Positions 5,481-21,814 of a stretch of DNA of 21,814 nt are shown piece by piece. Below the pieces are notes generated by a model. It saw only the letters and a program-made list of their open reading frames with translations. It was not told where the DNA came from and did no database searches. Location of the stretch: the IMG/VR virus record IMGVR_UViG_3300025425_002733, positions 1 through 21,814 of that record. One strand, 5' to 3'. Position numbers and translations under genes: made by a program. Every line of letters starts with the position of its first letter. The stretch's first letter is position 1. The stretch is from a virus.

Positions 5481-5481
5481 T

Positions 5482-5859: not shown

Positions 5860-5891
5860 AATTTCTTAAGATATGAATAATGAAGGTATAA

Positions 5892-6413: not shown

Positions 6414-6461
6414 CCCTCATTCCACCAACTGGACACCTTATTTGAATATTGGTAGGGTTAA
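6410..6461 (+). promoter_or_regulatory. Structured spacer that may mask the lipoprotein ribosome-binding site
   Basis: TTAACCCT (6410-6417) is fully complementary to AGGGTTAA (6454-6461), and directly inside it ACCAA (6424-6428) pairs with TTGGT (6449-6453), leaving a 6-base left bulge and a 20-base loop. The 3' arm contains the only SD-like bases (AGGG) for the ATG at 6465. The stem could attenuate translation of the cargo operon or mark the end of the upstream transcript. There is no U-tract. Confidence 0.45.
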
Positions 6462-6464
6462 GTT

Positions 6465-6722: not shown

Positions 6723-6723
6723 A

Positions 6724-7293
6724 ATGGACAAAATCCATTTTGAAAAAATAAAAAAGTTGTATGGAAATTATGCTAGTTGGGCTATTTGGGCCGAAGAAGG
6801 TGATAAGCCAAAAAGCAATATGGACAACTTAAGTATTTTTGAAGATAAAAATATTTTATCACAATTAAATCCTAATATTATTCTTGTGGGATTAAATATA
6901 TCTAAAAGAGATGAGCTTAATAAGCCTTTTGAAAATTTTCATGGCCCACTTGGGGGAGCATATAAAATTAGATATGCGTTTAAAAACTCTCCATATTGGG
7001 GAGGATATATGACAGATGTTATTAAAGATTTTGCAGAAAAAGCTTCTAATAAAATGATGAGTTATTTAAAAGAAAATAAAATATTTGAAAAAGAAAACAT
7101 AAATAGTTTTTTAAAAGAATTAGAAGATTTAGAATCTAATAATCCAACTATTATAGCATTTGGAAATGATGCTTATTCTGTTCTGATTAGAAATTTAAAA
7201 GATAGCTATAATATAAAAAAAGTTCCTCACTATTCGACATACATGAGCAAAGAAAATTATAGAAATGAAGTTCAAACTATTTTAAAATTTTAA
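6724..7293 (+). CDS. Uracil-DNA-glycosylase-superfamily-like protein
   Basis: A 189-aa cytoplasmic protein. Key segments in order: YGNYASWAIW (13-22), IILVGLNIS (52-60), NFHGP (71-75), IRYAF..SPYWGGYMTDVIKD (82-102), TIIAFGNDAY (142-151) and VPHYSTYMS (167-175). The G-L-N-x-S loop after a beta strand, the FGNDA segment and the late PHxS loop mirror the architecture of UDG/MUG-like glycosylases (GxNPG ... HPS). The family is divergent and catalytic activity cannot be read from sequence. It is followed after three bases by the PD-(D/E)XK gene, which suggests a two-step mechanism in which one protein recognises or excises a base and the other cuts. That pairing is an inference. Confidence 0.65.
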   Translation: MDKIHFEKIKKLYGNYASWAIWAEEGDKPKSNMDNLSIFEDKNILSQLNPNIILVGLNISKRDELNKPFENFHGPLGGAYKIRYAFKNSPYWGGYMTDVIKDFAEKASNKMMSYLKENKIFEKENINSFLKELEDLESNNPTIIAFGNDAYSVLIRNLKDSYNIKKVPHYSTYMSKENYRNEVQTILKF

Positions 7294-7296
7294 TTT

Positions 7297-8553: not shown

Positions 8554-8798
8554 AAAATATTCTAACTATTATATTTTTAAGCACACTGATAGTTGGTTGT
8601 GCTTATAAACCTTTAATCAATCCAGAAACCTCTAAAGATCCTGCTACTGGAGAAAATATTGCAGGAAATTACTGGAAAGATCTACATGCTTGCAGATATA
8701 TATTTAAACAAAACACTGGAAAATTAGCAATCTTACCTGATGAAAAGGGGTTTATTAAAAAATGTATGAAAGATTACGGCTATGCTATCTTGAGGTAA
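8550..8798 (+). CDS. Small lipoprotein, copy 2 of duplicated pair
   Basis: An 82-aa precursor with lipobox IVGC (Cys17), then CAYKPLINPETSKDPATGE, DLHACRY and a terminal KKCMKDYGYAIL block. It is very close to 6465-6722 except for the stretch between residues ~57 and ~66, where the two differ in length and sequence. It overlaps the nuclease stop by four bases. The 50-base identity to copy 1 suggests recent duplication or insertion of the two genes between the copies. Confidence 0.8.
   Translation: MKNILTIIFLSTLIVGCAYKPLINPETSKDPATGENIAGNYWKDLHACRYIFKQNTGKLAILPDEKGFIKKCMKDYGYAILR
8592..8641. repeat. 50-bp exact direct repeat, copy 2
   Basis: Identical to 6507-6556, inside the second lipoprotein gene. 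Recombination between the copies would delete 2085 bp carrying the UDG-like and nuclease genes and leave one lipoprotein. Confidence 0.85.
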
Positions 8799-8810
8799 AA
8801 ATTAAACATT

Positions 8811-9380
8811 ATGGATAAAAATATCGAAGGTAATGAAATATCTCAACTAGCCCAGAAAAGTCTAAATCATATCGAGACAAAAGAACTTTCTAAAACTGAA
8901 CTTATAAATTTTTTTAATAATATTAATAATAGTACAAAAATAACAGACTATGAGAGAGAAGTTTTAACAGAAGCTGTTGAAAAAAAAATGCGTGTCAAAT
9001 TTCCCAAAAGTGCAAAAGGAATTTTAGGTGGTAAAAGTGCTAAAGCCCAAGAGCTACTTGAAGAAATTTTTAGTGTATTAATAAAAGAATTTGATTGGTC
9101 AAACAATAAAGTTAAGACCAAAGTGAAAGATGGTGGAAAAATGATAAGTGGTGAATGGTTTGTTGATTGTTATATTTCCTATAAAAATAATGATGATTAT
9201 GCAACAGGATTTGGCTATATACAAAAAAAACCAGAGGAAGACCCATTTCTATCAATTAATTACGGGAGAGTTGGAAAAAAATATGAAAATGAAACCAAAG
9301 AAGAAAAAAACTTTCCAGTTGAATTAAAAGATGATGCTTTAAATCTTTATAGAAATTTCCTAACCAAAACTATTAAATGA
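8811..9380 (+). CDS. Hypothetical 189-aa protein
   Basis: I do not recognise this protein. It is soluble, with a helical N-terminal half (residues 1-~95, containing LTEAVEKKMRVKFPKSAKG and KAQELLEEIFSVLIKEF) and a strand-rich C-terminal half (GEWFVDCYISYKN, YATGFGYIQKK, FLSINYGRVG). It sits 12 bases after the second lipoprotein, and its stop overlaps the next ATG by four bases, so it belongs to the cargo operon. No catalytic motif is visible. Confidence 0.7.
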   Translation: MDKNIEGNEISQLAQKSLNHIETKELSKTELINFFNNINNSTKITDYEREVLTEAVEKKMRVKFPKSAKGILGGKSAKAQELLEEIFSVLIKEFDWSNNKVKTKVKDGGKMISGEWFVDCYISYKNNDDYATGFGYIQKKPEEDPFLSINYGRVGKKYENETKEEKNFPVELKDDALNLYRNFLTKTIK

Positions 9381-9550
9381 AAAAAATTGAAAAATACTTT
9401 GAAGGAAAAATATCTTACAAAGCAATTGATGATTTTGTTGATAAAACTAGAGCAGCATTAGACCCTGATGATGATTTTTATATTGAATGGCATATTCAAG
9501 AAGATTATCAATTTATAAGTGTTAATGTTGTAGATAGAGTACTTCATTGA
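9377..9550 (+). CDS. LH-family small acidic protein, copy 1
   Basis: 57 aa, too small for many gene callers. The start ATG overlaps the upstream TGA (ATGA at 9377-9380), and the stop overlaps the next ATG (TGATG). It shares with 10541-10714 the pattern GKxSYxxIDxxxDxxRxxLDPDDxF, then a strand with Q.I, ending DRVLH. The third member is at 9729-9908. Three related ORFs with conserved protein sequence but diverged DNA argue that the gene is real. The function is unknown; the size, acidity and repetition recall anti-effector or antitoxin-like small proteins. Confidence 0.75.
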   Translation: MKKIEKYFEGKISYKAIDDFVDKTRAALDPDDDFYIEWHIQEDYQFISVNVVDRVLH

Positions 9551-9726
9551 TGAAAAAAAAAGAAATTGATAAGCCAGGATTTCGAAAAACTATCAAATAC
9601 ATTTATAATAACTTTAGCTTTGATTACCTTGTAGAGACGTTATTTGAATATATATTTAAAGGCCTGTTGATTTTTGGTAGTATTTTTCTTGTGGTAAAAC
9701 TAATTAAATTTTTTTGGTTCATCTAA
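9550..9726 (+). CDS. Small inner-membrane protein, 58 aa
   Basis: It starts at the A of the TGATG overlap with the LH gene before it. The first ~30 residues are basic and polar (MKKKEIDKPGFRKTIKY). Residues ~35-57 form a hydrophobic segment (LLIFGSIFLVVKLIKFFWF), so one transmembrane helix is expected. It is translationally coupled to the LH protein, which may be its partner. No family is recognised. Confidence 0.65.
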   Translation: MKKKEIDKPGFRKTIKYIYNNFSFDYLVETLFEYIFKGLLIFGSIFLVVKLIKFFWFI

Positions 9727-9728
9727 AA

Positions 9729-9908
9729 ATGATAACCTTTAAAAAAACATTTGATTATTATGCAACGGATAATGAACTGGGTGATTATATAACTTTAATG
9801 GCAGATGTTGTTGAGGGAGATATCGATCCACAAATAGATTTTGATGTTGAGAGTGATGATGAGCATCGTTATGTTATTGTTAATATTTTAAATCAAGCTT
9901 TGCATTAA
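9729..9908 (+). CDS. LH-family small acidic protein, copy 2 (divergent)
   Basis: 59 aa from the ATG at 9729. An upstream in-frame TTG at 9714 would add five residues but overlaps the previous gene, so the ATG is preferred. It aligns end to end with the other two copies: M-x-x-F-x-K-x-F near the start, an IDxxxDxxx-type helix, DPQIDFDVE, a strand RYVIVNI and the ending NQALH. It is the most divergent and most acidic member. The next gene follows after four bases. Confidence 0.7.
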   Translation: MITFKKTFDYYATDNELGDYITLMADVVEGDIDPQIDFDVESDDEHRYVIVNILNQALH

Positions 9909-9912
9909 TAAT

Positions 9913-10371
9913 ATGATCTTTGGAATGTTGCATGATCCATTACCTGACGCTGAATTTATTTTAGATAGATTTAGAGAAATTAAAAAAAAATTACATCTCA
10001 TTTATAAGAAAAAAAATTATTTTGTTGAAGGTGATCTTGAAAAATATTTCAAAAATAAAGAGATAATTTGGACACCTCCCTCTTATGAAGTGAAAAAGAT
10101 TAAAAAAAATGAAAAAATTACTATGAAAAATTGTGATAAATTTAACTGGCAATATAAAAAAGATGAAAACTTTACGTTTCATTTGATGCCTATGTTTGGA
10201 GTTGCCTTTAGGTGTTACTCACTCAATTTTCCAGGTTTTGAAGCTGTAATGGAGTTCAGGAAAGAAGATAAGAATATAGTATTAAGAACACAATCTGATG
10301 ACACATCAATAAAATCTACAAGACTTGCTAAATATTTACAGAAAAATTATAAATTTTATAATCCTACTTAA
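9913..10371 (+). CDS. Hypothetical 152-aa protein
   Basis: I do not recognise this protein. It is lysine-rich, with an N-terminal helix (LPDAEFILDRFREIKKKLHLIY), a central strand region (FNWQYKKDENFTFHLMPMFGVAFRCYSLNFPGF) and a C-terminal helix. There is no signal peptide. It follows LH copy 2 by four bases. The position 'gene directly after an LH gene' repeats for the 58-aa membrane protein and the 180-aa protein. Confidence 0.7.
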   Translation: MIFGMLHDPLPDAEFILDRFREIKKKLHLIYKKKNYFVEGDLEKYFKNKEIIWTPPSYEVKKIKKNEKITMKNCDKFNWQYKKDENFTFHLMPMFGVAFRCYSLNFPGFEAVMEFRKEDKNIVLRTQSDDTSIKSTRLAKYLQKNYKFYNPT

Positions 10372-10388
10372 TTGTAATAATAAAAATT

Positions 10389-10544
10389 ATGTCAACATTT
10401 TATAAATCAATAGTCATAGCAGGTGCAGGCATAGGACTTGGTTGGGGTGTAGCAGAAGGATATGGTATTGGTGGAATTATAGGTTTGATGTTAGCAGGTG
10501 GATTTATTGGAGCAATGATTTCACTATTAAAAGAAAAAAAATGA
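10389..10544 (+). CDS. Small glycine-rich membrane protein, 51 aa
   Basis: Reads from ATG 10389 to TGA 10542-10544, overlapping the next ATG by four bases. The sequence is dominated by SIVIAGAGIGLGWGVAEG and IGGIIGLMLAGGFIGAMISLL, two short hydrophobic helices rich in G-x-x-G spacing, so a glycine-zipper membrane hairpin is likely. Such proteins can oligomerise in membranes; pore or holin-like behaviour is a guess. A longer frame that overlaps it from 10442 is an artefact. Confidence 0.7.
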   Translation: MSTFYKSIVIAGAGIGLGWGVAEGYGIGGIIGLMLAGGFIGAMISLLKEKK

Positions 10545-10714
10545 AAACTTTTGTGAAAACTTTCAGAGGAAAAATGTCTTATACTAAAATAGATAAATAC
10601 ATTGATTTAGTTCGTAGAACCCTAGATCCAGATGATTATTTTGATTTAGAAATTCAATATGATGAAGGTTGGCAGTATATAAGAATTGAAGTTTGGGATA
10701 GGGTGTTGCATTAA
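10541..10714 (+). CDS. LH-family small acidic protein, copy 3
   Basis: 57 aa, starting at 10541 in an ATGA overlap with the small membrane protein and ending at 10714, where its final A starts the next ATG. Strongly similar to copy 1: GKMSYTKIDKYIDLVRRTLDPDDYF, then WQYIRIEVWDRVLH. The frame is open further upstream to 10442, but that extension is read out of frame through the membrane protein and lacks any resemblance to the other copies. Confidence 0.75.
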   Translation: MKTFVKTFRGKMSYTKIDKYIDLVRRTLDPDDYFDLEIQYDEGWQYIRIEVWDRVLH

Positions 10715-11256
10715 TGGACTTTATAGACAAATTAGATAAAAAATTATCTGATAAAAAAAATAAAAAGAAATTAAAAGAAGAAGAAGAAAGACTAGAATAT
10801 GAAAAACGAGTAGAATTATTTAAGCCAATTCAAAACTTTTGTATGGAAGTTTATGAAAAACACTTGGCTGATGATTTTATAAAATTAGAAAAACTATTTA
10901 AAAAACATACCAAAAATCAAAAAGCAATTCGTATTTTATTTAATAGTAGGGGTCTTCTATCAAAATTAGAAATTGAATTAACATATGACGAAATTAATTA
11001 TCACACACAAGAGATAAAAATTCAATTTTGGCACAAAGATAAAAAAGAAGTAAGTCTTTACTCTAATGAGCTAGAACACATTAAAGCTTATAAATTTCTT
11101 GATACCAATTTATGTTTAAGAGTTTATTCTTGCACTGCTTCTGTTGATTACACAGAATTTGAATTAAAAGATAAAGAAAAAGCATATGAATATTTTAATG
11201 ATTTGTTTCAAAAAGAAATCATATCGTTTGGAGAAGATATGGGAGTTATTAAATGA
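10714..11256 (+). CDS. Hypothetical 180-aa coiled-coil protein
   Basis: Residues 1-~55 are highly charged and lysine/glutamate-rich (DKKLSDKKNKKKLKEEEERLEYEKRVELF), a likely coiled coil. The rest is mixed, with RILFNSRGLLSKLEIELTYDE, an IQFWHKDKKEVSLYS strand pair and a C-terminal helix. No family is recognised. It shares one base with LH copy 3 (TAATG) and four with the following secreted protein. Confidence 0.7.
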   Translation: MDFIDKLDKKLSDKKNKKKLKEEEERLEYEKRVELFKPIQNFCMEVYEKHLADDFIKLEKLFKKHTKNQKAIRILFNSRGLLSKLEIELTYDEINYHTQEIKIQFWHKDKKEVSLYSNELEHIKAYKFLDTNLCLRVYSCTASVDYTEFELKDKEKAYEYFNDLFQKEIISFGEDMGVIK

Positions 11257-11618
11257 AAAAATTCTTATATCTTATCTTTTTTTCCTTACTGTTCAGCGTG
11301 AATGCTTACGCTGATAATCACATCATAACTATTCAGTGCAAAAATGATGATCCAGATTTGTCAATCTTTAGACCAATCTATGTAATAAATCTTGAAACCA
11401 AAAAAGTTGAAGTTGGGGCTACTTATATGCAGGTCGTTAAGTATTCAGAAAAAGAAATACTTTTGGGTAAATCCAATGCTGGTGTTTCAGAGATGATGCA
11501 AATTGACAGACTAACAGGTCGTTATAGTTCTGAACAAACATTTTGGGGGAAGAGCGAAGAGGAAAAGAAAATAATAATCAGCACTGGTTATTGTATTAAA
11601 ATAAAGAAAGCTTTTTAA
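11253..11618 (+). CDS. Secreted 121-aa protein of unknown function
   Basis: Begins MKKFLYLIFFSLLFSVNAYADN, a clear Sec signal peptide with a likely cut after SVNAYA, so the mature ~100-aa protein should be periplasmic. It has two cysteines in the mature part (IQCKN and GYCIK near the end) that could form a disulphide. The pattern 'IITIQCKN...VYVINLE...YSEKEILLG...IDRLTGRYS' suggests a small beta-rich protein, similar in style to other uncharacterised proteins of marine bacteria. It overlaps the previous gene by ATGA. Confidence 0.75.
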   Translation: MKKFLYLIFFSLLFSVNAYADNHIITIQCKNDDPDLSIFRPIYVINLETKKVEVGATYMQVVKYSEKEILLGKSNAGVSEMMQIDRLTGRYSSEQTFWGKSEEEKKIIISTGYCIKIKKAF

Positions 11619-11621
11619 TTA

Positions 11622-12269
11622 ATGAAAAGATACTTAACGAGGTTTAAAATTTTAGCTTTTTTAATAATTGGTTTAATTGTTGTTGGTTGTTCAAGAGAAG
11701 ATAAAGATCGTAAAGCTATATCTCACTGTTCTGATATTAAATTCATTAGTTATGCCAATAATAATCCACACTTATTCATTGATCCTTCAAAGGCGATAGC
11801 TGAAACAAAGAAACGAGATATAAAAATAAAAGAATGGATTAAAATTAACCATGATCCAAAAGATTTAATGTCTATAGGAAAATTAAGAGCCAAAATGAAT
11901 AACAAAGTTGATGAGATTAGCTACCCACTCCACCTAGAAACTATTTTTATATTCTCTAAAGCCCTAAATGTTACGATGTTAAATGATAAAATAATTGACT
12001 GGGCAATAGACTACAAAAGAGAAGAGCTTAAAAATTATGAGATTTTTTATCAAGAGTGTGTTGATGAGTATATGGTGGAATATGCAAAAATGAATGAAGG
12101 TGAAGATTTTATTAAGAAGTATTACGAGTGGCAAAAGCAAGATGTTTCTAATCTAAATAAATATCATCACAAAGTTTTTGATGACATTGAAACTTTTTCA
12201 AAAGACTATCCATTCACAACTGTAATGTGGGAATTACAAAAGAAATTGATGAAAGCTGTACCAAGATAA
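11622..12269 (+). CDS. Lipoprotein, 215 aa, unknown function
   Basis: The N-terminus has a basic start, a hydrophobic core (FLIIGLIVV) and lipobox VVGC (Cys23), so it is predicted to be lipid-anchored. The mature part is alpha-helical and charged, with ICF-type short motifs absent and two further cysteines (SHCSD, QECVD). It is unrelated in sequence to the three small lipoproteins. It starts three bases after the secreted protein and closes the cargo operon, since a 63-base gap follows. Confidence 0.75.
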   Translation: MKRYLTRFKILAFLIIGLIVVGCSREDKDRKAISHCSDIKFISYANNNPHLFIDPSKAIAETKKRDIKIKEWIKINHDPKDLMSIGKLRAKMNNKVDEISYPLHLETIFIFSKALNVTMLNDKIIDWAIDYKREELKNYEIFYQECVDEYMVEYAKMNEGEDFIKKYYEWQKQDVSNLNKYHHKVFDDIETFSKDYPFTTVMWELQKKLMKAVPR

Positions 12270-12332: not shown

Positions 12333-12833
12333 ATGCCCAAGAAAGAAGATAAAGACACATCATTAAAGATAACTGAAATAATGAAGGTAGGTCCTAGTGT
12401 ACCTAAAATAAAAGGTAATAGTGCTAGAGACTGGGAATTTCTTATTTATGAATTAAAAAAAATGCAAGTCACACCTGGCGAAGCTTATAGAATTATTAAT
12501 CAGAAAAAAGGTGATACTGACATGAGGTTTCAGTGGAAAATGATGAGACTTACAATGTTTATCTGGGCTAGAGTAGAAGAAGACAAAGGCATGTATCTTA
12601 AACCTAAAATTGATACTGTAAGAGGTGTGGTAAGTGCTAGAAAGTTTGAACAATTTTTTCGTGGCTATTTCCCAGACCTTGAATTTGACCATGACAAAGA
12701 AGTGAAATTACTTAATAAATTAATAGCAGACAAAGGAGTGAGACCTTATTTCAAAGAGGGTTATTACTTATATGAAGGAACAAAGAGACATATTCCACAG
12801 AAGCATTTAGATAAGATTCTCTGGGACAAATAA
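12333..12833 (+). CDS. Hypothetical 166-aa protein
   Basis: I do not recognise this protein. It is soluble and basic, with an N-terminal charged tail (MPKKEDKDTSLKITEIMKV), a helical middle (RDWEFLIYELKKMQVTPGEAYRIINQKKG) and a block RGVVSARKFEQFFRGYFPDLEFD near residues 95-118. The YYLYEGTKRHIPQKHLDKIL ending resembles a small DNA-binding or virion-associated region, but no call is warranted. It stands alone between the cargo operon and the promoter at 12849 and lies just ahead of the replication module. Confidence 0.7.
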   Translation: MPKKEDKDTSLKITEIMKVGPSVPKIKGNSARDWEFLIYELKKMQVTPGEAYRIINQKKGDTDMRFQWKMMRLTMFIWARVEEDKGMYLKPKIDTVRGVVSARKFEQFFRGYFPDLEFDHDKEVKLLNKLIADKGVRPYFKEGYYLYEGTKRHIPQKHLDKILWDK

Positions 12834-12848
12834 TCTGATATCTATTGC

Positions 12849-12877
12849 TTGACAAAGTTCACGCAATAACATAATGT
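12849..12877 (+). promoter_or_regulatory. Sigma-70-type promoter for the replication module
   Basis: TTGACA (12849-12854) is a perfect -35. Downstream, CATAAT (12870-12875) is a 5/6 match to the -10 at a short 15-base spacing, and TAATGT (12872-12877) is a weaker match at 17. Transcription would start within or next to the ATG at 12887, so the message is leaderless or nearly so, unless translation begins later. Confidence 0.6.
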
Positions 12878-12889
12878 TTACACATTATG
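12870..12889. promoter_or_regulatory. 20-bp perfect dyad operator over the -10 and start codon
   Basis: CATAATGT and ACATTATG are exact inverted repeats around TTAC. The dyad covers the probable -10 and the ATG of the HTH gene, so a bound dimer would block both transcription and translation initiation. The HTH protein it precedes is the obvious candidate for autoregulation. Confidence 0.6.
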
Positions 12890-13189
12890 GAAACGAATAT
12901 TAATCAAAGATATACCTATCCTTTTAAATATTGTAATTCACAACAACTGTGTGATGTTCATGGTATTACTCGTAACACCCTAGAGAGATGGGTTAGAGAA
13001 GAAAAAGATTTAGGCAAAACTATACCAGGTCAAATTAAGATACCTGGAGTTAGAAGTTATATCTGGAGCCCAACAATATTTCACGATCAGTATTTGCTTC
13101 CTAAAATAAATGGTCCAGTTCGTAACGAGTATGAACAAAGAGATCATTTGTTAATCATAAACAATCTAAAAAAAAGGAAAGTATCATGA
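12887..13189 (+). CDS. Helix-turn-helix protein, AlpA/excisionase-like
   Basis: A 100-aa protein with a winged-helix/MerR-like HTH at about residues 18-40 (QQLCDVHGITRNTLERWVREE), followed by a wing segment PGQIKIPGVRSYIWSP. This layout is usual for excisionases (Xis), AlpA-type activators and small replication regulators of phages and satellites. It is the first gene after the module promoter and its start codon lies in the dyad operator. It could control the switch to excision and replication. It overlaps the next gene by four bases. Confidence 0.75.
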   Translation: METNINQRYTYPFKYCNSQQLCDVHGITRNTLERWVREEKDLGKTIPGQIKIPGVRSYIWSPTIFHDQYLLPKINGPVRNEYEQRDHLLIINNLKKRKVS

Positions 13190-13392
13190 GCAAAAAATAT
13201 AATTGGAGAGTAGCAGACTGGACCGACAAAGAGGATTATACAGTAGCTGAAGCAGTTGAGGATTGTAAAAAAACCCCAGTTGTTGCATGGAAAGTTTCAG
13301 CAGAAAGCCCATTTAATGATTTTTATAATTATGTAATCCAGGGTGAGAGAAGATCAGTGGTTTTAAACATGAAGAAATCGGAGGTTAAATAA
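13186..13392 (+). CDS. Hypothetical 68-aa protein
   Basis: A small soluble protein with a good SD (AAGGAAA, 13174-13180) and a four-base overlap with the HTH gene. It is tryptophan-rich for its size (WRVADW, VVAWKV) and has no recognised motif. It lies immediately before the ssDNA-binding protein and shares one base with it. Confidence 0.65.
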   Translation: MSKKYNWRVADWTDKEDYTVAEAVEDCKKTPVVAWKVSAESPFNDFYNYVIQGERRSVVLNMKKSEVK

Positions 13393-13931
13393 TGCATATC
13401 AAACAAATATATGGCACTGCTAAATGGAGTTTTTTATCAGACCCAGACGAAGGATTTGGAGCTAAAAAATATCATGTTGTCCTCGAGGTTCCAAAAAGTG
13501 AAGCCACAGAACATATGGCAGATATCAAAAAGATCATTGGAAAAGAGATAGTTGAGCAAGGTAAAACAACACCTCATGCGACTACTAAATTTAAGGAAGC
13601 TCCACTACCATTTATAGACAATGGAGAGACTGTTGATTTTAAAATCCATTCTCAATTCAAACCTAAATTCTTTGACAGAAAAGGAAAAGCTTTAGGTGAA
13701 GAAGTTAAGATTTGGAAAGATAGTTCAATGTGGATTACTTACAAAGCTCAAGGTTACAACAAAGGCATGGGAATAGGATGTACTTTATATATTCAGTCTG
13801 GCCAAATAGATGAGCTTGTTACAGGCAATTCTCAAAACTGTCCTTACCCAAATAGAGATGAAGCAGAAGACACAGTTAACAAATTAAAGGAGTTTATTGT
13901 TGATGACCATATCCAAACACAAAAGCAATAA
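13392..13931 (+). CDS. gp2.5/DUF2815-type ssDNA-binding protein
   Basis: A 179-aa protein with the layout of phage ssDNA-binding proteins of the T7 gp2.5/DUF2815 kind: an N-terminal beta-barrel opening (MHIKQIYGTAKWSFLSDPDEGFGAKKYHVVLEVPK), a GETVDFKIHSQFKPKFFDRKG segment, a strand pair SSMWITYKAQGYN and a GIGCTLYIQSGQIDELV strand, ending in an acidic tail. It would coat single strands for the SF3 helicase at the replication fork. The SD GGAGG (13380-13384) is strong. The calling is by overall resemblance and by its place in a replication operon. Confidence 0.72.
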   Translation: MHIKQIYGTAKWSFLSDPDEGFGAKKYHVVLEVPKSEATEHMADIKKIIGKEIVEQGKTTPHATTKFKEAPLPFIDNGETVDFKIHSQFKPKFFDRKGKALGEEVKIWKDSSMWITYKAQGYNKGMGIGCTLYIQSGQIDELVTGNSQNCPYPNRDEAEDTVNKLKEFIVDDHIQTQKQ

Positions 13932-14082
13932 TGAAGTTGCAACTAAAGTTAGGGTTGATCTTGAGTTAGAAAAAAGAGCAAGACAATCAGAAGAGTACAT
14001 ACTTGTGAGAGAGAAATATAAACCATTTAGGAAAATAAAAAATCCTAATTACAACCCAGACAAAAACAGGAGAACACAATGA
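13903..14082 (+). CDS. Hypothetical basic 59-aa protein
   Basis: Starts at ATG 13903 (ten bases after AAAGGAG at 13886-13892; in-frame TTGs at 13897 and 13900 are closer and could be used). It overlaps the end of the ssDNA-binding gene by 29 bases and the next gene by four. The protein is highly basic (KHKSNNEVATKVRV, REKYKPFRKIKNPNYNPDKNRR), suggesting nucleic-acid contact. No family is recognised. Confidence 0.55.
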   Translation: MTISKHKSNNEVATKVRVDLELEKRARQSEEYILVREKYKPFRKIKNPNYNPDKNRRTQ

Positions 14083-14345
14083 GTAGAAAAAATGGAAGTG
14101 TAAATTCAATAGATAAGAAATTAGAAGCTGTCTCATCAACAATGACAGCAGATAAGGACCCACTTCATCATATAGAGTTAGAGCTTGCTGGAACATTAAA
14201 ACAAATGTTTGAGGAAGCTAAACAAGAAGGCTTTAAAGGTGATTTCAATTCTTACCTGGACAGCTTAAGTTTAGAAGAACTTAAATCTGTCGGTGCTAAA
14301 AATGGTGGAATGATCAAAAAACTATATGAAGTTAAAAAAGCATAA
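14079..14345 (+). CDS. Hypothetical 88-aa protein
   Basis: A small acidic-helical protein with SD AGGAG (14068-14072). Contains LAGTLKQMFEEAKQEGFKGDFNSYLDSLSLEELKSV, a likely helical bundle with an FKGDFNSYLDS turn. Proteins of this sort are common in podovirus-like replication regions of marine phages. No function can be assigned. It is co-transcribed with its neighbours (four-base overlap upstream). Confidence 0.65.
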   Translation: MSRKNGSVNSIDKKLEAVSSTMTADKDPLHHIELELAGTLKQMFEEAKQEGFKGDFNSYLDSLSLEELKSVGAKNGGMIKKLYEVKKA

Positions 14346-14392
14346 AGTTAAATATGAAAAAAATAAAAAGTTAAAAGTTATGACTAAAGTTA
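14344..14392. repeat. Four AAAGTTA repeats in the only sizeable gap of the replication operon
   Basis: AAAGTTA occurs at 14344-14350, 14367-14373, 14374-14380 and 14386-14392, in the gap before the 250-aa gene. The repeats are short and AT-rich. They could be replication iterons or a regulator site, or a low-complexity leader. Confidence 0.35.
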
Positions 14393-14395
14393 AAA

Positions 14396-15148
14396 ATGGA
14401 TAAAAAGCAATTAAGATACATAGTTGATAGATCAACAACTCCAGTAGATCAGATGGATAATGAGACAAAGGTTCGTTTAGGCATGAACCCTGGAGAGACA
14501 TGGCAACAGTTCCTTAACAGAGAAGGCAGAGATCAAAAAGGTAATTTAAAACCATTGATATCAAAAAGCCACCTAGAACATTCCCTGGATGTATTTGGTG
14601 ATGGTGTTCCAAAGTTAGAAAATATTTCTGTACTGAATAGAAATAAAAAGTATGGAAGACCTAAACCAGTAAACCTATATGACAAGAGTACATACATGAG
14701 TAATCCAGAAGTTAAAAAAGGACTTGATCTTTGGGAGCAGAAACTGGAGCTGGCTAAAAACCCAAAAAATAAAGAAGAAAGACTGGACGCAAAAGACACT
14801 AGAAGAATGATAATGAAAGACTACAACAATCCAAAGATGAGAAAGTTTGTAGGTGATGACGAGTTAAAACTAATCGGTAAACATAAATCACAATTAAACA
14901 GGCCAGTAGTTACTCCTGTGATTACTCCAGTGATTAAACCTCAAGTAAAAGAATTTAACCCAAGACTTCCAGAGAGAGACTTAAGAGATATCATAGAGGA
15001 AAACACTAGGATGAAACCTGGGTTATCAGAAGACTTCGTAAAGCTGAAATCCGATATTAAAGAAAATATGGATTATGTTATGGGGAATAGAAAGACACCA
15101 AGTGGTGAGAAAGAAGAGAGCCAAGACCCAATAAAAGGAGATAATTAA
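14396..15148 (+). CDS. Hypothetical 250-aa protein
   Basis: I do not recognise this protein. It is soluble and polar. Residues 1-~45 include MNPGETWQQFLNREGRD, the middle is rich in K/N, and residues ~165-190 form a proline-rich linker (RPVVTPVITPVIKPQVK) followed by a helical C-terminus with PGLSEDFVKLKSDIKENMDYV. A similar T-P-(G/V)-I-T-P-V motif recurs in the 310-aa HTH protein at 19569-20501, so the two may share an origin or partner. It overlaps the next start by one base (TAATG). Confidence 0.68.
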   Translation: MDKKQLRYIVDRSTTPVDQMDNETKVRLGMNPGETWQQFLNREGRDQKGNLKPLISKSHLEHSLDVFGDGVPKLENISVLNRNKKYGRPKPVNLYDKSTYMSNPEVKKGLDLWEQKLELAKNPKNKEERLDAKDTRRMIMKDYNNPKMRKFVGDDELKLIGKHKSQLNRPVVTPVITPVIKPQVKEFNPRLPERDLRDIIEENTRMKPGLSEDFVKLKSDIKENMDYVMGNRKTPSGEKEESQDPIKGDN

Positions 15149-15342
15149 TGACTAATCGGCATAAATATAAATCAATTAGCCTTAAAAACTCTACCTATCA
15201 AAAGCTTACTGATCTCACCAAAGAGTTAATCCCAGGAGTACACTTAAGTGGAGCTAAAGCAGTAGAAGTTATGATTGATAAGGTGAGCAGTTTTGAGGGC
15301 CCAACAGAAACTGTAAATGAAACTACCAAAAAAACCACTTAA
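15148..15342 (+). CDS. Small ribbon-helix-helix-like protein
   Basis: A 64-aa protein with SD AAAGGAG (15134-15140). HKYKSISLKNSTYQKLTDLTKELIPGVHLSGAKAVEVMIDKV reads as a beta strand followed by two helices, the size and layout of CopG/Arc-type repressors and of phage RHH proteins. The C-terminal tail is Thr/Lys-rich (ETVNETTKKTT). It overlaps the following gene by 26 bases. The DNA-binding role is inferred from the fold pattern only. Confidence 0.6.
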   Translation: MTNRHKYKSISLKNSTYQKLTDLTKELIPGVHLSGAKAVEVMIDKVSSFEGPTETVNETTKKTT

Positions 15343-16057
15343 GAAAATATTTCTCAAACAAAAAAAGTTACTTCCCTGGTTTAAGAGAGATGAGAAGACT
15401 TTCAAGAACATCCTGGCCAGGAAGATTAATATAGAGACTGCAACCAAAGAGCAGATGAGAAAGGGCTTCATTGGACTAGAGAAAATCTTAAGAACTCAAC
15501 AGAGAACTATCTACAATGTGTGTGAGGAGGTAAGGTGGCAAAGAAACTATTTAAGAATTCTAATTATTGAAGCCAGAGGTTACACAAAAAAGTTTAATAA
15601 AGATTTTGAAAACCAAGAAGCCAAAAATGATGCCCTAGTTTTTATCTTAAGAAATAAAATTGAGAAGTTAGAAGTTAACATTAAAACTCTAGAAGGTACT
15701 TGTGGGGAATGGTACGACAGAGACCAAGAGTGGAAGAAGATAACTAAAAAAAGAGAGAAGGAATATCTCAAAGCAAAGAAGATGTGGGAGAAGGTCCACA
15801 AAGATATTCTAGAGAAGAACAAAGACTGTATCAAAAAGAATAGAGATATAATTAAAGATCATGCAGAAGTAACTAGAGCTTATAATGGCCTTCACATGTT
15901 TGGTAAGTTTGCTGAAGATCAAGGCATAGATATTACAAAGCACACTAAACAACTTCCAGAGAACATCACAGAGTTTGAACAGGAACATAAGTTACTTGAG
16001 AGTGGCAAGGTTCAACACTCATATAAATTTAAAGTACCACCAAAGAAAAAAAACTAA
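15317..16057 (+). CDS. Coiled-coil 246-aa protein
   Basis: A strongly basic, helix-rich protein: KILRTQQRTIYNVCEEVRWQRNYLRILIIEAR, then a long charged stretch (NDALVFILRNKIEKLEVNIKTLEG, EWKKITKKREKEYLKAKKMWEKVHKDIL) with heptad-like spacing. No enzymatic motif. It could be a structural or replication-complex scaffold. The start at 15317 overlaps the RHH-like gene, and the next start is 14 bases after its stop. Confidence 0.65.
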   Translation: MKLPKKPLKKIFLKQKKLLPWFKRDEKTFKNILARKINIETATKEQMRKGFIGLEKILRTQQRTIYNVCEEVRWQRNYLRILIIEARGYTKKFNKDFENQEAKNDALVFILRNKIEKLEVNIKTLEGTCGEWYDRDQEWKKITKKREKEYLKAKKMWEKVHKDILEKNKDCIKKNRDIIKDHAEVTRAYNGLHMFGKFAEDQGIDITKHTKQLPENITEFEQEHKLLESGKVQHSYKFKVPPKKKN

Positions 16058-16070
16058 TGGATAATGAATA

Positions 16071-16262
16071 ATGAAAAATGAATTTTGGAATAAAGAACGA
16101 AAGCAACACTGCCTAAAGTTGGTGGCTAAAGAAGTGAAAAGAGCAATTTATATTAAAAGCTATATGGCTCGTAAGAGAGCTGAAGGCAAAATCAAACACT
16201 GGAGACAGTACAAATTAGAAAAGGAAGCAAATGGTATTACTAAAATCCAACAAAATAAATAA
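16071..16262 (+). CDS. Hypothetical basic 63-aa protein
   Basis: A small, lysine- and arginine-rich helical protein (KERKQHCLKLVAKEVKRAIYIKSYMARKRAEGKIKHWRQYKLEKEA). It overlaps the following gene by 32 bases. It keeps tight operon spacing and reads like other small basic proteins of this module; nucleic-acid binding is plausible. Confidence 0.55.
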   Translation: MKNEFWNKERKQHCLKLVAKEVKRAIYIKSYMARKRAEGKIKHWRQYKLEKEANGITKIQQNK

Positions 16263-16488
16263 ATGTGATGAGAAGAAGTGTTTACTAAATGATAGAGAAG
16301 ATGACATATCAATTTATATAGACCATGAGATCACAGCATTAATCCAAAGAATAGAATTAAGAAACACAGATGTTCACCCTGGTTGCTTGCATGTTTTAGT
16401 TAAGAAACATCTTGAGTATCAGTCTGTAAAAATATTTGCAGAACTCATGGAAAAATATCCAGGTGGTGAAGAAGTGAGGATATCTTAA
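16231..16488 (+). CDS. Hypothetical 85-aa protein
   Basis: Starts at ATG 16231 preceded by AAGGAAG. Contains two N-terminal cysteines (NKCDEKKCLLN), then DISIYIDHEITALIQRIELRNTDVHPGCLHVLVKKHLEYQSVKIFAELMEKYPGG cut into helices. The stop shares a base with the start of the helicase gene (TAATG), suggesting translational coupling to it. No family is recognised. Confidence 0.6.
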   Translation: MVLLKSNKINKCDEKKCLLNDREDDISIYIDHEITALIQRIELRNTDVHPGCLHVLVKKHLEYQSVKIFAELMEKYPGGEEVRIS

Positions 16489-18998
16489 TGAGTATTGTTA
16501 ATAAAAATATATCCATAGTAAATAAAAAATCAAAACCCATAGAAGAGAAAGCAAAAAAAGAACTTAAGTTAGGTATTGCTCCAAGTAATGGTAAGGATTG
16601 TAATCCTAGTTTTGTCTGGGCCATGCAAGAGTTGACTGGAACTGAAAATGCTTACTATCATTATAGAAATCATAAGAAGGAAAATTGTTTTTATATAAGA
16701 AGATATGAGCCATATGACAAAGGTAATGATAGCCCTAAAAAGAAAATAATCCCTTATTCTTATGACTTAATTACTGCTACCTGGGTTTGTTATGCCTGGG
16801 AGAAGAATAGACCTTTATTCCATGAAGATAGATTAGACCTACATAAGCCAGTGATAATTGTAGAAGGTGAGAAGACTGTTCTTGAAGCTGAAAAATTATT
16901 CAAAGAATATAATGTTGTTACTTGGAGTGGTGGTTCTAAAGCTATGAGCCATACTACCTATGAAGTACTTAAAGATAAAAGAATAATCTTATTTCCAGAT
17001 AATGATAAGCCAGGTGTTCTGGCAATGCATGAAGTAGCAAAGATATTAATTGAAGAAGATATTTCAGATGATGTCTCTATGGTTACTTTACCTAAAGGCT
17101 TGCCTGATGGATGGGATTTAGCAGATCAAATAAATATACCTGGAGTTACCTATGAAGGAATATTAGATAGCCACACAGAGTATGACCCAGAAGAACACAG
17201 TAAGATTTGGGAAAAAATAAATAAGAGAGATGACAAAAAGAAAACTAAACAAACTGTAAAAGCTATCGCTAAAGATTATTGTTATATTATGGCAAATGAT
17301 ATGTATAATAAAATTGGTACTGGAGATTTCTTCAACTCTTCCCAATTAAATAATATGCACAGTCACCAGGTGGCAGAAGGAACTCTCACAGAAAAACTAT
17401 TGAATGACCCAATGTTTTCTAAAGCTGAAACTTTTGTAACCAGTGCAAAGTTTAAACCTGGACTACTAGAGATTACAAAGCCTGGGACTATTCCATTGAT
17501 AGACAAAGGAACTGTATTAAATATTTATATCCCTAATTACTTATCTCCAAAGAAGGGTGATGTTAAATTTCTAATTGATCTTTTTATATGGCTTATAGGT
17601 TTAGATAAGTGGAAGATCATTGAGCAATGGATAGCCTACAACATCCAATACCCAGGAGACAAAATGAAGTGGGCTATTGTATTAGTGTCAGAGATAGAAG
17701 GAGCTGGTAAAGGATTGTTGGCTAGAATTATCTCAAGAATACTTGGTCAAGCTAATGTAAATGAAAATGCTAACTACAAACATCTTGTCAACACACACAA
17801 TACTCTTTTAATTGGAACTCAAGTTTTAGTACTGAATGAAGTATCACTTGGAGATTTTAAAAGTAAAAGTGAAGGAACCAACTCACTTAAGAACTTTGTA
17901 GCAGATGATATCTATTCATGTAACTTCAAAGGGAAGCCAATGGTTAAGCTGGCCAACTTTACTAACATCATGTTATTCTCAAATGACATAACTGTATTAG
18001 GTGTAAGTAATGGGTCCAGAAGATATTTCTTTTGTAAGATCAATAGATCAGAAGAAGAGTTAATAAAAATTACAGACAATGGAACTTTCCAGAGAGCCTG
18101 GGATTTTGTTGATAGTGATGAAGGAGCTTCTTACTTAATTAATTATTTTAAGAATGAAGTAAAGATACCAGACATAACAATCTTCAAGAAAAGAGCTCCA
18201 CAAACTGCTGATCTAATAGAGTTAATAGAGCAGTCCAAACATCCAATGCAGAAGATTTTGGAACACGATTTATCCAGACCAGACCTACTAAATAGAAGGA
18301 TATTTAGTGGTAGTTTTGCTGGGATTATAACCTTTGATGAGCTTAATGAAGCCTTAAGAACTACTGATAAAGATGAGACTAAACAATTTAAGTGGCCTTC
18401 TTATGGAGATGACGCACTATATAAATTTTTAACAACCAACTCCAGCAGATGGAACAATGGAGATACTACCAGGCAGATAAGTATAAAAGGTGTCAGACAG
18501 AGGTTTCATTTATTAGATGACAGTAGATGTCCTATTCCTGGGAAGAGTTACAAAGATTTAACTCCTAAACAAATAGAAACTATCTACCTGGACTATGTGA
18601 AGATTTGTAGTGCCATCCACAATGAGGAACCAGATTACCATGAAGCAATCAAACTGGAGCCAGAAAAAGTTGAAGCACTTAAGAAGAAGCTTGAGAGTGA
18701 CTGTAAGGAATCAAAACATAAGTATCGTTCCGATTATGCTGGCAGAAACCCAGAAGAACTTTTTGATAATCTTATGACTGGAACTGAAAAGCTTGCACAC
18801 AATGACCAGTTCCAAGTAGAGAGTATAAGGAAGATGAGAATTATTCTGTATAGAGGAATAAGAACCCCAGAAGCAATCCTATCAGATTTTTCTAATGATA
18901 TTCCTTATCCAATGAAGCCAGAGTTAGCTCCCAATATGGAACTCAAGACTTATCCTGAAGGTTTAGGCCCAGAGAAGAAAGTAGCTTTTGGCCTATGA
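16488..18998 (+). CDS. Replication protein: TOPRIM domain + SF3 (DUF5906-like) helicase
   Basis: An 836-aa protein, the likely replication initiator or fork helicase. TOPRIM region ~118-215: Glu126 in IIVEGEK, then LFPDNDKPG with Asp171 and Asp173. SF3 helicase region ~360-530: Walker A EGAGKG (404-409), Walker B-like VLVLNEV (446-452), polar LFSND motif (496-500) and NGSRRYF (508-514). The remaining ~300 residues are probably a winged-helix C-terminal part. No CHC2 zinc finger is seen, so primer synthesis is uncertain. The architecture parallels satellite P4 alpha and D5-type proteins of phages. Start by TAATG coupling to the preceding gene, preceded by GAGGA. Confidence 0.88.
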   Translation: MSIVNKNISIVNKKSKPIEEKAKKELKLGIAPSNGKDCNPSFVWAMQELTGTENAYYHYRNHKKENCFYIRRYEPYDKGNDSPKKKIIPYSYDLITATWVCYAWEKNRPLFHEDRLDLHKPVIIVEGEKTVLEAEKLFKEYNVVTWSGGSKAMSHTTYEVLKDKRIILFPDNDKPGVLAMHEVAKILIEEDISDDVSMVTLPKGLPDGWDLADQINIPGVTYEGILDSHTEYDPEEHSKIWEKINKRDDKKKTKQTVKAIAKDYCYIMANDMYNKIGTGDFFNSSQLNNMHSHQVAEGTLTEKLLNDPMFSKAETFVTSAKFKPGLLEITKPGTIPLIDKGTVLNIYIPNYLSPKKGDVKFLIDLFIWLIGLDKWKIIEQWIAYNIQYPGDKMKWAIVLVSEIEGAGKGLLARIISRILGQANVNENANYKHLVNTHNTLLIGTQVLVLNEVSLGDFKSKSEGTNSLKNFVADDIYSCNFKGKPMVKLANFTNIMLFSNDITVLGVSNGSRRYFFCKINRSEEELIKITDNGTFQRAWDFVDSDEGASYLINYFKNEVKIPDITIFKKRAPQTADLIELIEQSKHPMQKILEHDLSRPDLLNRRIFSGSFAGIITFDELNEALRTTDKDETKQFKWPSYGDDALYKFLTTNSSRWNNGDTTRQISIKGVRQRFHLLDDSRCPIPGKSYKDLTPKQIETIYLDYVKICSAIHNEEPDYHEAIKLEPEKVEALKKKLESDCKESKHKYRSDYAGRNPEELFDNLMTGTEKLAHNDQFQVESIRKMRIILYRGIRTPEAILSDFSNDIPYPMKPELAPNMELKTYPEGLGPEKKVAFGL

Positions 18999-19339
18999 AA
19001 CAGAACTCCAGAAAAGCGAAGGGCAGATATCTTCAGAATATTGTAAGAGACAGGATAGTTAAATTATATCCATCACTCACGAAGAAGGATATTAGAACTT
19101 CAACAGTAGGAGAGAATGGAGCTGATGTTAAGTTACTAACTAATACAGCAAAGAAACTATTTCCTTATTCTGTTGAGACAAAGAATGTTAAGTCTTACAG
19201 ATTACTGTATGAGGCCTTTAGACAGGCCAAGAGACACACCAACATGGAACCATTGCTAGTCTTAAAAGGTCAGAGAGAAAAGCCTGTGGTGATCCTGGAC
19301 ATGGAACACTTCTTTGAATTGTTAGAAGGAGAAGATTAA
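18995..19339 (+). CDS. PD-(D/E)XK nuclease, resolvase-like
   Basis: A 114-aa protein with the PD-(D/E)XK pattern of small phage endonucleases/Holliday-junction resolvases: GENGADVKLL (Asp44), YSVETKNV (Glu61, Lys63) and AFRQAKRH (Gln77). The N-terminal GRYLQNIVRDRIVKLYP helix is usual for this group. It overlaps the helicase gene by ATGA, so both are made together. A role in resolving branched DNA during replication or recombination is the likely one; the substrate is not proven. Confidence 0.72.
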   Translation: MKQNSRKAKGRYLQNIVRDRIVKLYPSLTKKDIRTSTVGENGADVKLLTNTAKKLFPYSVETKNVKSYRLLYEAFRQAKRHTNMEPLLVLKGQREKPVVILDMEHFFELLEGED

Positions 19340-19568: not shown

Positions 19569-20501
19569 ATGACAATATTAAAAGGCCAGGCAGAACTAGA
19601 TAGTTTCAAACTTACGAAGAAGGAAGTGGCAGATTATCTAGGTATATCAACCAATGCAGTCCGAATGTCTATGAAGGGAAACAATTATCACAATTTGGAT
19701 TATCGTTTTGATGGCTACCAATATCTTTTTAAAGTTCCAACGAGACCTCGTGTTTACATAGCAGACCACACCACCCCTGGTCCAGAGCCAAGATCAAATA
19801 AAACAAGTACTCCTGGGATTACTCCTGTGAAATCTAAAGTTAACAGAGGAGCTACTCATAGAGGGGAAGCAAACTATAAGAACCAGGCTACTAAATTATA
19901 TAATGAGGGTAAGATATTAAAGAATATTGAAGACAAATTTAAAAGCCCAGAGCATAAAAGAATATTTAACGACATGACCCAGGCCAACTGGGATAAGGCC
20001 TATGAACAAAGCTTGAAAGAGAAAGAAGCAGAGTTTCAGAAAGAAAATCCTAGGATTAACCCTAGAGGTACAGTCATGGGAAGCCCTAGAACTCATGGAG
20101 TATATGGGGGCATGTTAAATGGAAAAGGGTTACAGAATATAGATAATAAGGAACACCAAAGATTGGCCAGACGAGAAGAAGAAGCAAATGGTATTAAAAT
20201 GCAAGAAAAGTACATTGAGAAACCTCAAATGGATGGCTCATATAAGAGAGAGCTTACTAGAATAAATGTTCCAGACTTTTCAGATAGAAGCTCCAACAGT
20301 TCCTTCTTTGTTGGTCGTGCTGTATATGATGATTTTAGCCAGGACTATCATGTTGATAAAGAAGATGTAGCAGTCTCATTCTCACAATATGATTTGGATA
20401 GATATGGCAAGCCAGAAGAAAGAACTGAATTTAAAAGTAAGGTTGAAGAAAGTATTTACAGGACCAAAAAACATCTACTGAAGACCAGGGGCTCGTATTA
20501 G
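19569..20501 (+). CDS. HTH-bearing 310-aa protein
   Basis: The N-terminal ~60 residues hold a helix-turn-helix (KLTKKEVADYLGISTNAVRMSM), then a strand-rich DYRFDGYQYLFKVP. A linker with TPGITPVKSKV follows, then a long, mainly helical region with no named motif (ATKLYNEGKILKNIEDKF, KAYEQSLKEKEAEFQ). An upstream in-frame ATG at 19470 with an SD would add 33 residues unlike the rest. That ATG overlaps the TATAAT of the promoter, so I prefer 19569. It may be a regulator or a DNA-end/origin-binding protein of the element. It is transcribed apart from the replication operon. Confidence 0.65.
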   Translation: MTILKGQAELDSFKLTKKEVADYLGISTNAVRMSMKGNNYHNLDYRFDGYQYLFKVPTRPRVYIADHTTPGPEPRSNKTSTPGITPVKSKVNRGATHRGEANYKNQATKLYNEGKILKNIEDKFKSPEHKRIFNDMTQANWDKAYEQSLKEKEAEFQKENPRINPRGTVMGSPRTHGVYGGMLNGKGLQNIDNKEHQRLARREEEANGIKMQEKYIEKPQMDGSYKRELTRINVPDFSDRSSNSSFFVGRAVYDDFSQDYHVDKEDVAVSFSQYDLDRYGKPEERTEFKSKVEESIYRTKKHLLKTRGSY

Positions 20502-20522: not shown

Positions 20523-20644
20523 TATTAATTATTAATCTCACTATATTAACATCATTAGTAATACTTCTTGTGGGAGCAACAACCTAATTCGTTTCCAGAC
20601 AATTTAATTTTGTTTCCACAAGTTGCTTTTCAAATATTTTTTTT
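20523..20644 (+). ncRNA. Candidate small RNA with pseudoknot potential
   Basis: CTTGTGG (20567-20573) is complementary to CCACAAG (20616-20622), and AGCAAC (20575-20580) to GTTGCT (20622-20627). The order on each side is interleaved, so the two helices would form an H-type pseudoknot rather than a nested hairpin. A T8 run (20637-20644) follows 9 bases later, and the twin promoter motif lies just upstream. No ORF over 50 codons covers it. Speculative. Confidence 0.35.
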
Positions 20645-20695
20645 GGGATTTTTTTGCTGGAATTTTTTCAGTGATATTTTTTTTTCACATTTTTT
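20637..20695. other. Spaced T-tracts, possible bent DNA
   Basis: Five runs of 6-9 T occur at 20637-20644, 20649-20655, 20663-20668, 20677-20685 and 20690-20695, with centres 11-16 bases apart. Phased A/T-tracts of this sort bend DNA and are common near recombination and replication sites. The spacing is only roughly helical. Confidence 0.4.
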
Positions 20696-20724
20696 CTAAA
20701 ATGAAATTTTACCTCTAAAGCTCT

Positions 20725-20755
20725 GTCTAACTGTAATCTAATAGTCTAACTATTA
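20725..20755. repeat. 7-3-7 dyad and GTCTAACT direct repeat at the right end
   Basis: TAATAGT-CTA-ACTATTA (20739-20755) is a perfect dyad with the same geometry as GAGAACA-AAA-TGTTCTC in att. GTCTAACT is present at 20725-20732 and 20744-20751, 19 bases apart. A dimeric regulator or excisionase site is plausible. Confidence 0.45.
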
Positions 20756-20779
20756 ACATCCATTCTACACAGAAGGTGA

Positions 20780-20807
20780 TTGACCTTTTAAAGACTTTTC
20801 TTATTCT
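20780..20807 (+). promoter_or_regulatory. Rightward promoter candidate near the right end
   Basis: TTGACC (20780-20785), 5/6 to -35, and TATTCT (20802-20807), 4/6 to -10, at 16-base spacing. It faces attR. In the integrated state it reads toward the 3' end of the host gene; in a circular form it would read through attP into int. Confidence 0.4.
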
Positions 20808-20859
20808 AGGATTGTTTGGGACCCCTCGGATTAAGAACAAAACAAGTCATATCCTCTAA

Positions 20860-20920
20860 AGTGTAATTGGTGTTAAATGCCCTGTTTGGCTACACTACAT
20901 GTAACAATGAAACAGTGTAA
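20860..20920. repeat. Three AGTGTA/TACACT half-sites
   Basis: AGTGTAA at 20860-20866 and 20914-20920 with the inverted TACACT at 20891-20896. The arrangement resembles arm- or Xis-binding half-sites in an attachment region. Confidence 0.35.
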
Positions 20921-20972: not shown

Positions 20973-20979
20973 ATTTCCG

Positions 20980-21108
20980 AGTGAGAACAAAATGTTCTCT
21001 TGCTTAACTTGGGTTCTCTTTCAAAAAGTTAATGTAATCAACAACTTCTTGAAACTTTTCATCAGGAATATCTTTATATGAGTTGCCAAACTTCTCTTTG
21101 ACACAGAT
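20980..21108. other. attR, right copy of 129-bp attachment repeat
   Basis: Identical to 366-494. It supplies the last 34 codons and the stop of the gene at 21004-21231 and the dyad at 20983-20999 located four bases after that stop. The gene stays intact, which is the usual outcome when an element carries a copy of its target's 3' end. Confidence 0.9.
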
Positions 21109-21231
21109 AGCAACGTGGGCGTAGGGGTTCCTTCCTTTTGGGTGATTTGGATGACTTGGTAATTGACCAAGTAAATAATCACCAGCTTCCTGTATCATTT
21201 TCCAGAGTTTACGCCGATTATCATCATTCAT
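21004..21231 (-). CDS. Attachment-site host gene, 75-aa ORF6C-like protein
   Basis: An intact 75-aa protein whose C-terminal 34 codons come from the element side of attR. HVAICVKEKFGNSYKDIPDEKFQEVVDYINFL resembles the end of phage antirepressor ORF6C-type domains ('SYKDIPxxxFxEVxxYI'). The N-terminal part contains GDYLLGQLPSHPNHPKGRNPYAH. It may itself be a phage-derived gene kept by the host. The start ATG at 21231 has no strong SD. The resemblance is by motif only; its function is unknown. Confidence 0.7.
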   Translation of the reverse strand: MNDDNRRKLWKMIQEAGDYLLGQLPSHPNHPKGRNPYAHVAICVKEKFGNSYKDIPDEKFQEVVDYINFLKENPS

Positions 21232-21260
21232 ACTACTCTAAACTATGATTTATCTCTAAA

Positions 21261-21284
21261 TGATCTAGTCTATGATCTAGTTTA
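21261..21284. repeat. 12-bp tandem repeat upstream of the attachment gene
   Basis: TGATCTAGTCTA (21261-21272) is followed by TGATCTAGTTTA (21273-21284), one mismatch. It lies in the upstream region of the 75-aa gene and may be its operator. Confidence 0.4.
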
Positions 21285-21634
21285 GCACCAATTAATATCT
21301 ATTTCATTAACAATTTTTATAATTCTTCGGCTCTAGTTTGGACTCTAAAAAGACTCTGTTTCCTCACTTTTAAGGTTGTGGATAAATATCGTTATCTTCG
21401 TCTTTTGTTCTTATTGCTCCGGCTGTTGACCTCGGCAAAAGGGGGCCAATCAATAGTGGGCCCCAAGCAAACTCGTTCTATGGCGTTTTAAAAAGGGTGT
21501 ATAGGCAGTTTTAGTTTAGGGGAGGTAATAGTTTTACCTTTAGAGTTAGTTCTAGACAGTTAAAGCTGTTGAAAACTAATTGAAAAAAAATAATTTTCAA
21601 AAAAATATTACTTAAAAATATTATAGAAAAAATT
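21285..21634. other. Non-coding flank with a consensus DnaA box
   Basis: No convincing gene is seen. TGTGGATAA (21377-21385) matches the consensus DnaA box on the opposite strand, but it is alone. AGGTAA/TTACCT (21523-21528, 21534-21539) is a short dyad. The GC-richer block 21416-21500 (GGGGGCC, GGGCCCC) stands out from the surrounding AT-rich DNA but is not tRNA-like by eye. Confidence 0.35.
21580..21600. repeat. AT-rich inverted repeat before the last gene
   Basis: TTGAAAA (21580-21586) and TTTTCAA (21594-21600) are exact inverted repeats around a 7-base loop, 34 bases before the ATG at 21635. It could be an operator or a weak hairpin. Confidence 0.35.
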
Positions 21635-21814
21635 ATGGCTTGGAATAACAGAGAAAATCATTTAACGAACCGGCATGACCAAACGCCAGTTATCGACCGT
21701 TGTATCAACTGTGGAGATCACGAACAGGTTTATGCTCAAATTACAATGGAGTTTGGAGAAGGTAATCTTAACACCGGTCCAATATGCAAGAAGTGTTATT
21801 CTACTAATCTTTGA
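21635..21814 (+). CDS. Small two-CxxC zinc-ribbon-like protein
   Basis: 59 aa, ending with TGA at the last base of the window. It contains CINC (residues 23-26) and CKKC (51-54), a pair of CxxC motifs about 25 residues apart, the spacing of a small zinc ribbon that binds one zinc. Asn/His-rich N-terminus (MAWNNRENHLTNRHDQ). It belongs to the host side beyond attR. No partner is visible, and its function is unknown. Confidence 0.6.
   Translation: MAWNNRENHLTNRHDQTPVIDRCINCGDHEQVYAQITMEFGEGNLNTGPICKKCYSTNL

Follow-up and report, generated by a model that had tools for sequence, protein, structure and literature searches.

The DNA analysed here, the whole 21,814-nt stretch of IMG/VR record IMGVR_UViG_3300025425_002733 (hereafter the window), contains an element of about 20.6 kb from att to att. 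Its anatomy is that of a phage satellite: probably it is a mobile island, integrated in a SAR11 chromosome, that is replication-competent, lacks virion genes, is packaged by a helper and carries cargo for host defence or surface change. At the sequence level, it is inserted at a specific site, encodes a replication gene set and has no recognised virion genes. Its features are listed in Table 1.

Table 1 Features of the element and its flanks in the window.
Feature	Position	Strand	Evidence or remarks
attL, 129-bp exact repeat	366..494		host-protein remnant coded (aa ~42-75 of 75), plus terminator palindrome
Tyrosine integrase, 557 aa	600..2273	+	phrog_1 4.2e-14; R381/K408/R495/H519/Y529 invariant in alignment
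Mrr-like nuclease and ResIII/DEAD helicase fusion, defence-like	2335..5085	-	Pfam ResIII 2.9e-18, Mrr_cat_2 6.1e-14
Cargo block, including other small or secreted proteins	5109..12269
Three related short lipoproteins	5482-5748; 6465-6722; 8550-8798	-; +; +	within cargo block
173-aa protein, weakly CII-like	5892-6413		within cargo block
418-aa protein, weak PDDEXK_4	7297-8553		within cargo block
166-aa backbone protein, family F22	12333..12833	+	homologues in L059 (62%) and L123 (36%)
Small HTH protein, F6	12887..13189	+	weak matches, E 0.003-0.05
Gp2.5-like ssDNA-binding protein	13392..13931	+	phrog_112 E 1.7e-7
88-aa core protein, F1	14079..14345	+	14/15 elements
250-aa core protein, F2	14396..15148	+	13/15 elements; middle low-complexity, C-terminal motif conserved
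64-aa small protein	15148..15342	+	also in relatives
246-aa charged protein, F15	15317..16057	+	probably coiled-coil
TOPRIM primase and SF3-type helicase, F0	16488..18998	+	Pfam/PHROG matches, motifs
RusA-like Holliday-junction nuclease, F3	18995..19339	+	phrog_244 1e-11
310-aa winged-HTH protein, F4	19569..20501	+	Xis/MerR-like N-terminus and helical hairpin; model, fold comparison
Non-coding region at the place of relatives' conserved AT-rich ori-/packaging-like region	20600..20900		degenerate in window
attR	20980..21108		identical to attL
75-aa SAR11 host gene	21004..21231	-	3' end restored by element
Probable end of second satellite	21240..21814		59-aa zinc-ribbon gene (21635-21814) within; flank match to L006-L010

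Boundaries and insertion site

The exact direct repeat that flanks the element is 129 bp long, whereas 50 simulated Markov sequences of the same composition contained none longer than 17 bp. At attR, this repeat makes up the 3' end of the 75-aa gene, which is intact there, and the arrangement reads as 3'-end integration into this gene with restoration of the target. Between the repeats, the integrase comes first, followed by approximately 10 kb of defence-like and secreted cargo, and then by the replication block. The original prediction had placed this module at 12333-19339; its genes are indeed found there, but the module runs on to 20501, since the likely start of F4 is 19569, and lies inside the larger att-flanked element. 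Positions 616-641, where the integrase gene begins, hold 26 bp that recur at 92% beside attR (20960-20985) and may be integrase arm sites or the remnant of another copy.

The host is most likely SAR11 (Pelagibacteraceae). The 75-aa gene was found in 1 of 398 genomes drawn from the phylum; in the family to which this genome belongs, 96 of 247 genomes have it. This family, which has small genomes, includes those that we take to be SAR11 strains HTCC1062, HIMB5, IMCC9063 and HTCC7211, and the assignment of the host follows from this distribution. SAR86, suggested as a host by L012, was rejected, as the gene was not found in any of 35 genomes of L012's SAR86 family; nor was it found in 369 genomes drawn from L012's class.

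Integrase and replication backbone

Alignment of the integrase revealed the full set of conserved catalytic residues. The gene calls of the original prediction for an HTH protein, an ssDNA-binding protein, a TOPRIM/SF3 helicase and a resolvase-like nuclease were verified, with the nuclease specified as RusA-like and the HTH protein weakly supported, although its gene is kept in 9 of 15 compared elements. The primase-helicase F0 matched Pfam DUF5906 (1.2e-11), DUF6371 (7e-8) and Toprim_4 (7.8e-6), together with several PHROG primases, and contains a Walker A motif (EGAGKG at 404) and TOPRIM motifs (VEGE at 125, PDND at 170). No known homologue was recognised for F1 or F2.

Structure prediction had been proposed as a check on the small proteins. 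The model of the 166-aa protein had a pLDDT of 41, too low for use. The model of the 310-aa protein F4, of low overall confidence, consists of a winged HTH and a helical hairpin, and fold comparison favoured excisionase/MerR proteins (best Z 5.7). On this model, F4 is better read as an excisionase or regulator than as a small terminase. The small-terminase reading was not convincing, with lambda Nu1 giving no match and the fold comparison pointing to an Xis/MerR-type winged HTH; phrog_57, which also matched in all 14 control genomes at E <= 10, matched F4 only in L006 (1.4e-5), L007 (0.0031) and L122 (0.046), and not the window copy.

Relatives of the element

Scanning of viral contigs with the helicase and integrase yielded ten distinct relatives of 8.9-16.0 kb (L003-L010, L122 and L123); a further contig, L011, is a piece of the window's own element. 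All ten relatives end in exact terminal repeats of 29-141 bp and are therefore complete circles, a proportion (10 of 10) that a possible bias of IMG/VR to short circular contigs would inflate. Common to the circles is a backbone of a TOPRIM- or AEP-type primase-helicase, a RusA-like nuclease, an Xis/MerR-like winged-HTH protein, small conserved proteins and a tyrosine integrase. Across 15 elements, F0 was present in 15, F1 in 14, F2 and the RusA-like nuclease in 13 each, and F4 in 10. Gene order in L123 is the same as in the window, the 166-aa protein and ssDNA-binding protein included, with cargo again between the integrase and the 166-aa gene, and this order recurs, with no cargo, in the SAR11 chromosome L059. 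At its N-terminus, F0 is of the TOPRIM type in the window and L003 (and in L004 by alignment), and L005, L006 and L063 have a primase domain of the AEP type there; this alternation, noted among the F0 proteins of L003-L010, L059 and L063, is a domain swap within one helicase family.

Copies in SAR11 chromosomes are found at tRNA-Leu(taa) (L059, L063) and tRNA-Thr(tgt) (L060), with flanking repeats of 40, 41 and 56 bp. Read by eye, the 5' half of a tRNA-Leu-like sequence precedes the L122 integrase, and that of a tRNA-Cys-like sequence the L123 integrase.

Absence of recognised virion genes and probable mode of transfer

No virion family was matched at a credible level by the window backbone and cargo proteins scanned (PHROGs, Pfam), and no terminase, portal, capsid or tail gene was recognised in the ten circular relatives or in any other family member examined, in agreement with the original prediction that none is recognisable in the element. 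As the circular relatives are complete, the absence is not an effect of fragmentation, and the element probably spreads in particles made by other phages.

After the last gene, several elements with different integrases and sites have an AT-rich tract and then ...TATATAG..ACTATTAGGATCCC..., with a DnaA box (TTATCCACA) following in L006-L008 and L010. This shared non-coding signature may act as a replication origin or in packaging. In an exact scan of viral contigs for TATATAGN{2,6}ACTATTAGGATCCC, the carriers were satellites only, and the signature thus identified no helper. It had no convincing phage similarity, and the cos/pac sequences shared with phages that had been suggested as a test did not emerge, no phage with the signature being found. 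A DNA-level search for a helper in INPHARED gave no match, and neither did the integrase, the 166-aa protein or the replication-block DNA among 50,697 phage records.

These results bear on an alternative in which phage particles play no part and the element, an integrative plasmid or genomic island, moves by natural transformation, in vesicles or by conjugation. In its favour are the failure to find any packaging gene or phage-shared cos/pac, and the AT-rich tract and DnaA box beside the integrase in most of L006-L010, which fit plasmid-style replication. We consider it rather unlikely: the circular relatives were all drawn from a collection of virus contigs, scans of window proteins recognised neither a relaxase nor a conjugation protein, and the combination of integrase, primase-helicase, ssDNA-binding protein and RusA-like nuclease is satellite- or phage-like.

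Phage-type replication genes together with an integrase would also suit a prophage in decay whose virion genes have been lost. This origin is improbable, since the virion-less layout is conserved and intact in the ten complete circles and in SAR11 chromosomes of diverged sequence (F0 identity 46-51%), with open frames maintained, and since the viral-contig scans found no phage that combines this backbone with virion genes. As a reservation on the satellite reading, the conserved F1 and F2, for which no function was recognised, could hide divergent virion or packaging functions. A complete virus with a very divergent, unrecognised capsid is the least probable reading of all: F1 and F2 are nearly as widespread as the helicase and without known homologue, but the backbone has few proteins, which are small and in part of low complexity, and no terminase ATPase was recognised in any element compared.

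Comparison with known satellites

As in phage satellites generally, att repeats accompany an integrase, and the element has its own replication genes without a complete virion gene set. P4 satellites combine an integrase with a multi-domain primase-helicase and lack virion genes, and the window element shares this combination. It differs from the P4 family in its primase, which scored 26.5 bits with the TIGR01613 model against a cut-off of 108.7; none of the proteins scanned against Pfam and PHROGs matched helper-use genes of the Psu/Sid/Delta type, a search that diverged versions could escape, and no P4 gene for packaging or capsid size was recognised. By the tests made, the element is not a P4-family member. 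The label "P4-like" in the original prediction holds for function only; its satellite-type profile without virion genes is supported. As for TerS-encoding PICIs, the weak phrog_57 matches of F4 are confined to three relatives and do not include the window copy.

The most likely class is that of marine satellites resembling VEIMEs, tycheposons or PICMIs. VEIMEs are described as marine integrative satellites with tyrosine recombinases, defined by their presence inside virions (Eppley et al. 2022, PNAS 119:e2212722119, via PMC10803314, PMC10187409). Compared by that description, the window element is, by its anatomy, likewise a marine integrative satellite with a tyrosine recombinase. Tycheposons are described as cargo-carrying tyrosine-recombinase elements at tRNA genes of streamlined ocean bacteria (Hackl et al. 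2023, Cell, via PMC10872708). On this description, cargo, recombinase and a streamlined ocean host are shared, and several relatives of the window element lie at tRNA genes (tRNA-Leu, tRNA-Thr), whereas the window element itself lies at the 3' end of a protein-coding gene and has a full replication block. PICMIs are small integrase and primase satellites without capsid-remodelling genes that are packaged as concatemers, adjoin fis in Vibrionaceae and carry AlpA (PMC10803314). The window element shares the integrase, the primase and the lack of capsid-remodelling genes, but differs in site and host: its insertion is in the 75-aa gene and not beside fis, and no AlpA match was found among the proteins scanned.

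Cargo and proposed life cycle

The Mrr/ResIII protein is similar to restriction enzymes. It matched PADLOC REase_MTase_IIG (4.5e-89) over the N-terminal part of the profile, and no methyltransferase domain was recognised in it. A simple heuristic marks 5 of the window's 16 cargo proteins as probably secreted, compared with 11 of 15 in L123, 7 of 12 in L005 and none in the backbones. Two of the three lipoprotein genes share 81% DNA likeness over 170 bp. The 189-aa cargo protein was considered as an encapsulin and rejected, its ENCP4 match (E 0.0088) reaching about half the cut-off and being judged a chance hit.

From this anatomy we infer excision, helper use and packaging. Upon phage infection or other stress, the island would excise, with F4 as the candidate excisionase, and its replication, in circular or concatemeric form, would start in the region beside attP. 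The terminase of the helper would then package island DNA into helper capsids, and the integrase would re-insert it in a new cell, where the cargo (the Mrr/ResIII protein, the nuclease-like protein and the lipoproteins) may provide phage defence or a change of the host surface. SAR11 are among the most abundant ocean cells and have very small genomes. If confirmed, the element family would account for part of their gain and exchange of defence and surface genes, and would provide a concrete satellite-helper system with named sites, an integrase, a candidate origin/packaging region and culturable host strains.

The 75-aa gene as a possible attachment hub

The region preceding the integrase contains the 75-aa gene's 5' end in L006, L007 and L009, and matches the upstream region of that gene in L008 and L010. 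With the window element at the 3' end, the gene thus appears to be entered from both ends. Among 53 SAR11 loci examined around the gene (L066-L078, L082-L121), repeats of its 5' region were present in 19, presumably including those of HTCC1062 and HTCC7211. Most lie 1.3-5 kb upstream and therefore bound islands of that size. The backbone proteins and integrases tested had no match within ~9 kb in any of the 53 loci. Homologues of window cargo are found near the gene, with the 215-aa (69%, L066) and 57-aa (60%, L121) proteins placed by position inside an island bounded by the 5' region, and further ones nearby for the 189-aa (55%, L101) and 173-aa (43%, L115) proteins.

A tentative reading, which we regard as possible though doubtful, is that the 75-aa gene serves as a two-sided attachment hub, which satellites enter either at the 3' end, as in the window, or at the 5' end, as in L006, L007, L009 and probably L008 and L010, and at whose 5' end islands of 1.3-5 kb with no recognised integrase accumulate, in an integron-like exchange of cargo. 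We hypothesize that such islands would be mobilised in trans by a satellite integrase.

With self-matches of the window ignored, positions 21173-21632 in the right flank match the stretch that, in circles L006-L010, lies after the last gene and ahead of the integrase; on its other side, the 75-aa gene therefore probably borders a second element. The 59-aa zinc-ribbon gene of this flank has relatives in L060 and L122. On the left, positions 284-343, between the end of a glyoxalase gene and attL, are 93-94% identical to sequences that in L069 precede both the 75-aa gene and a fragment of it, and this flank may therefore also be island-derived.
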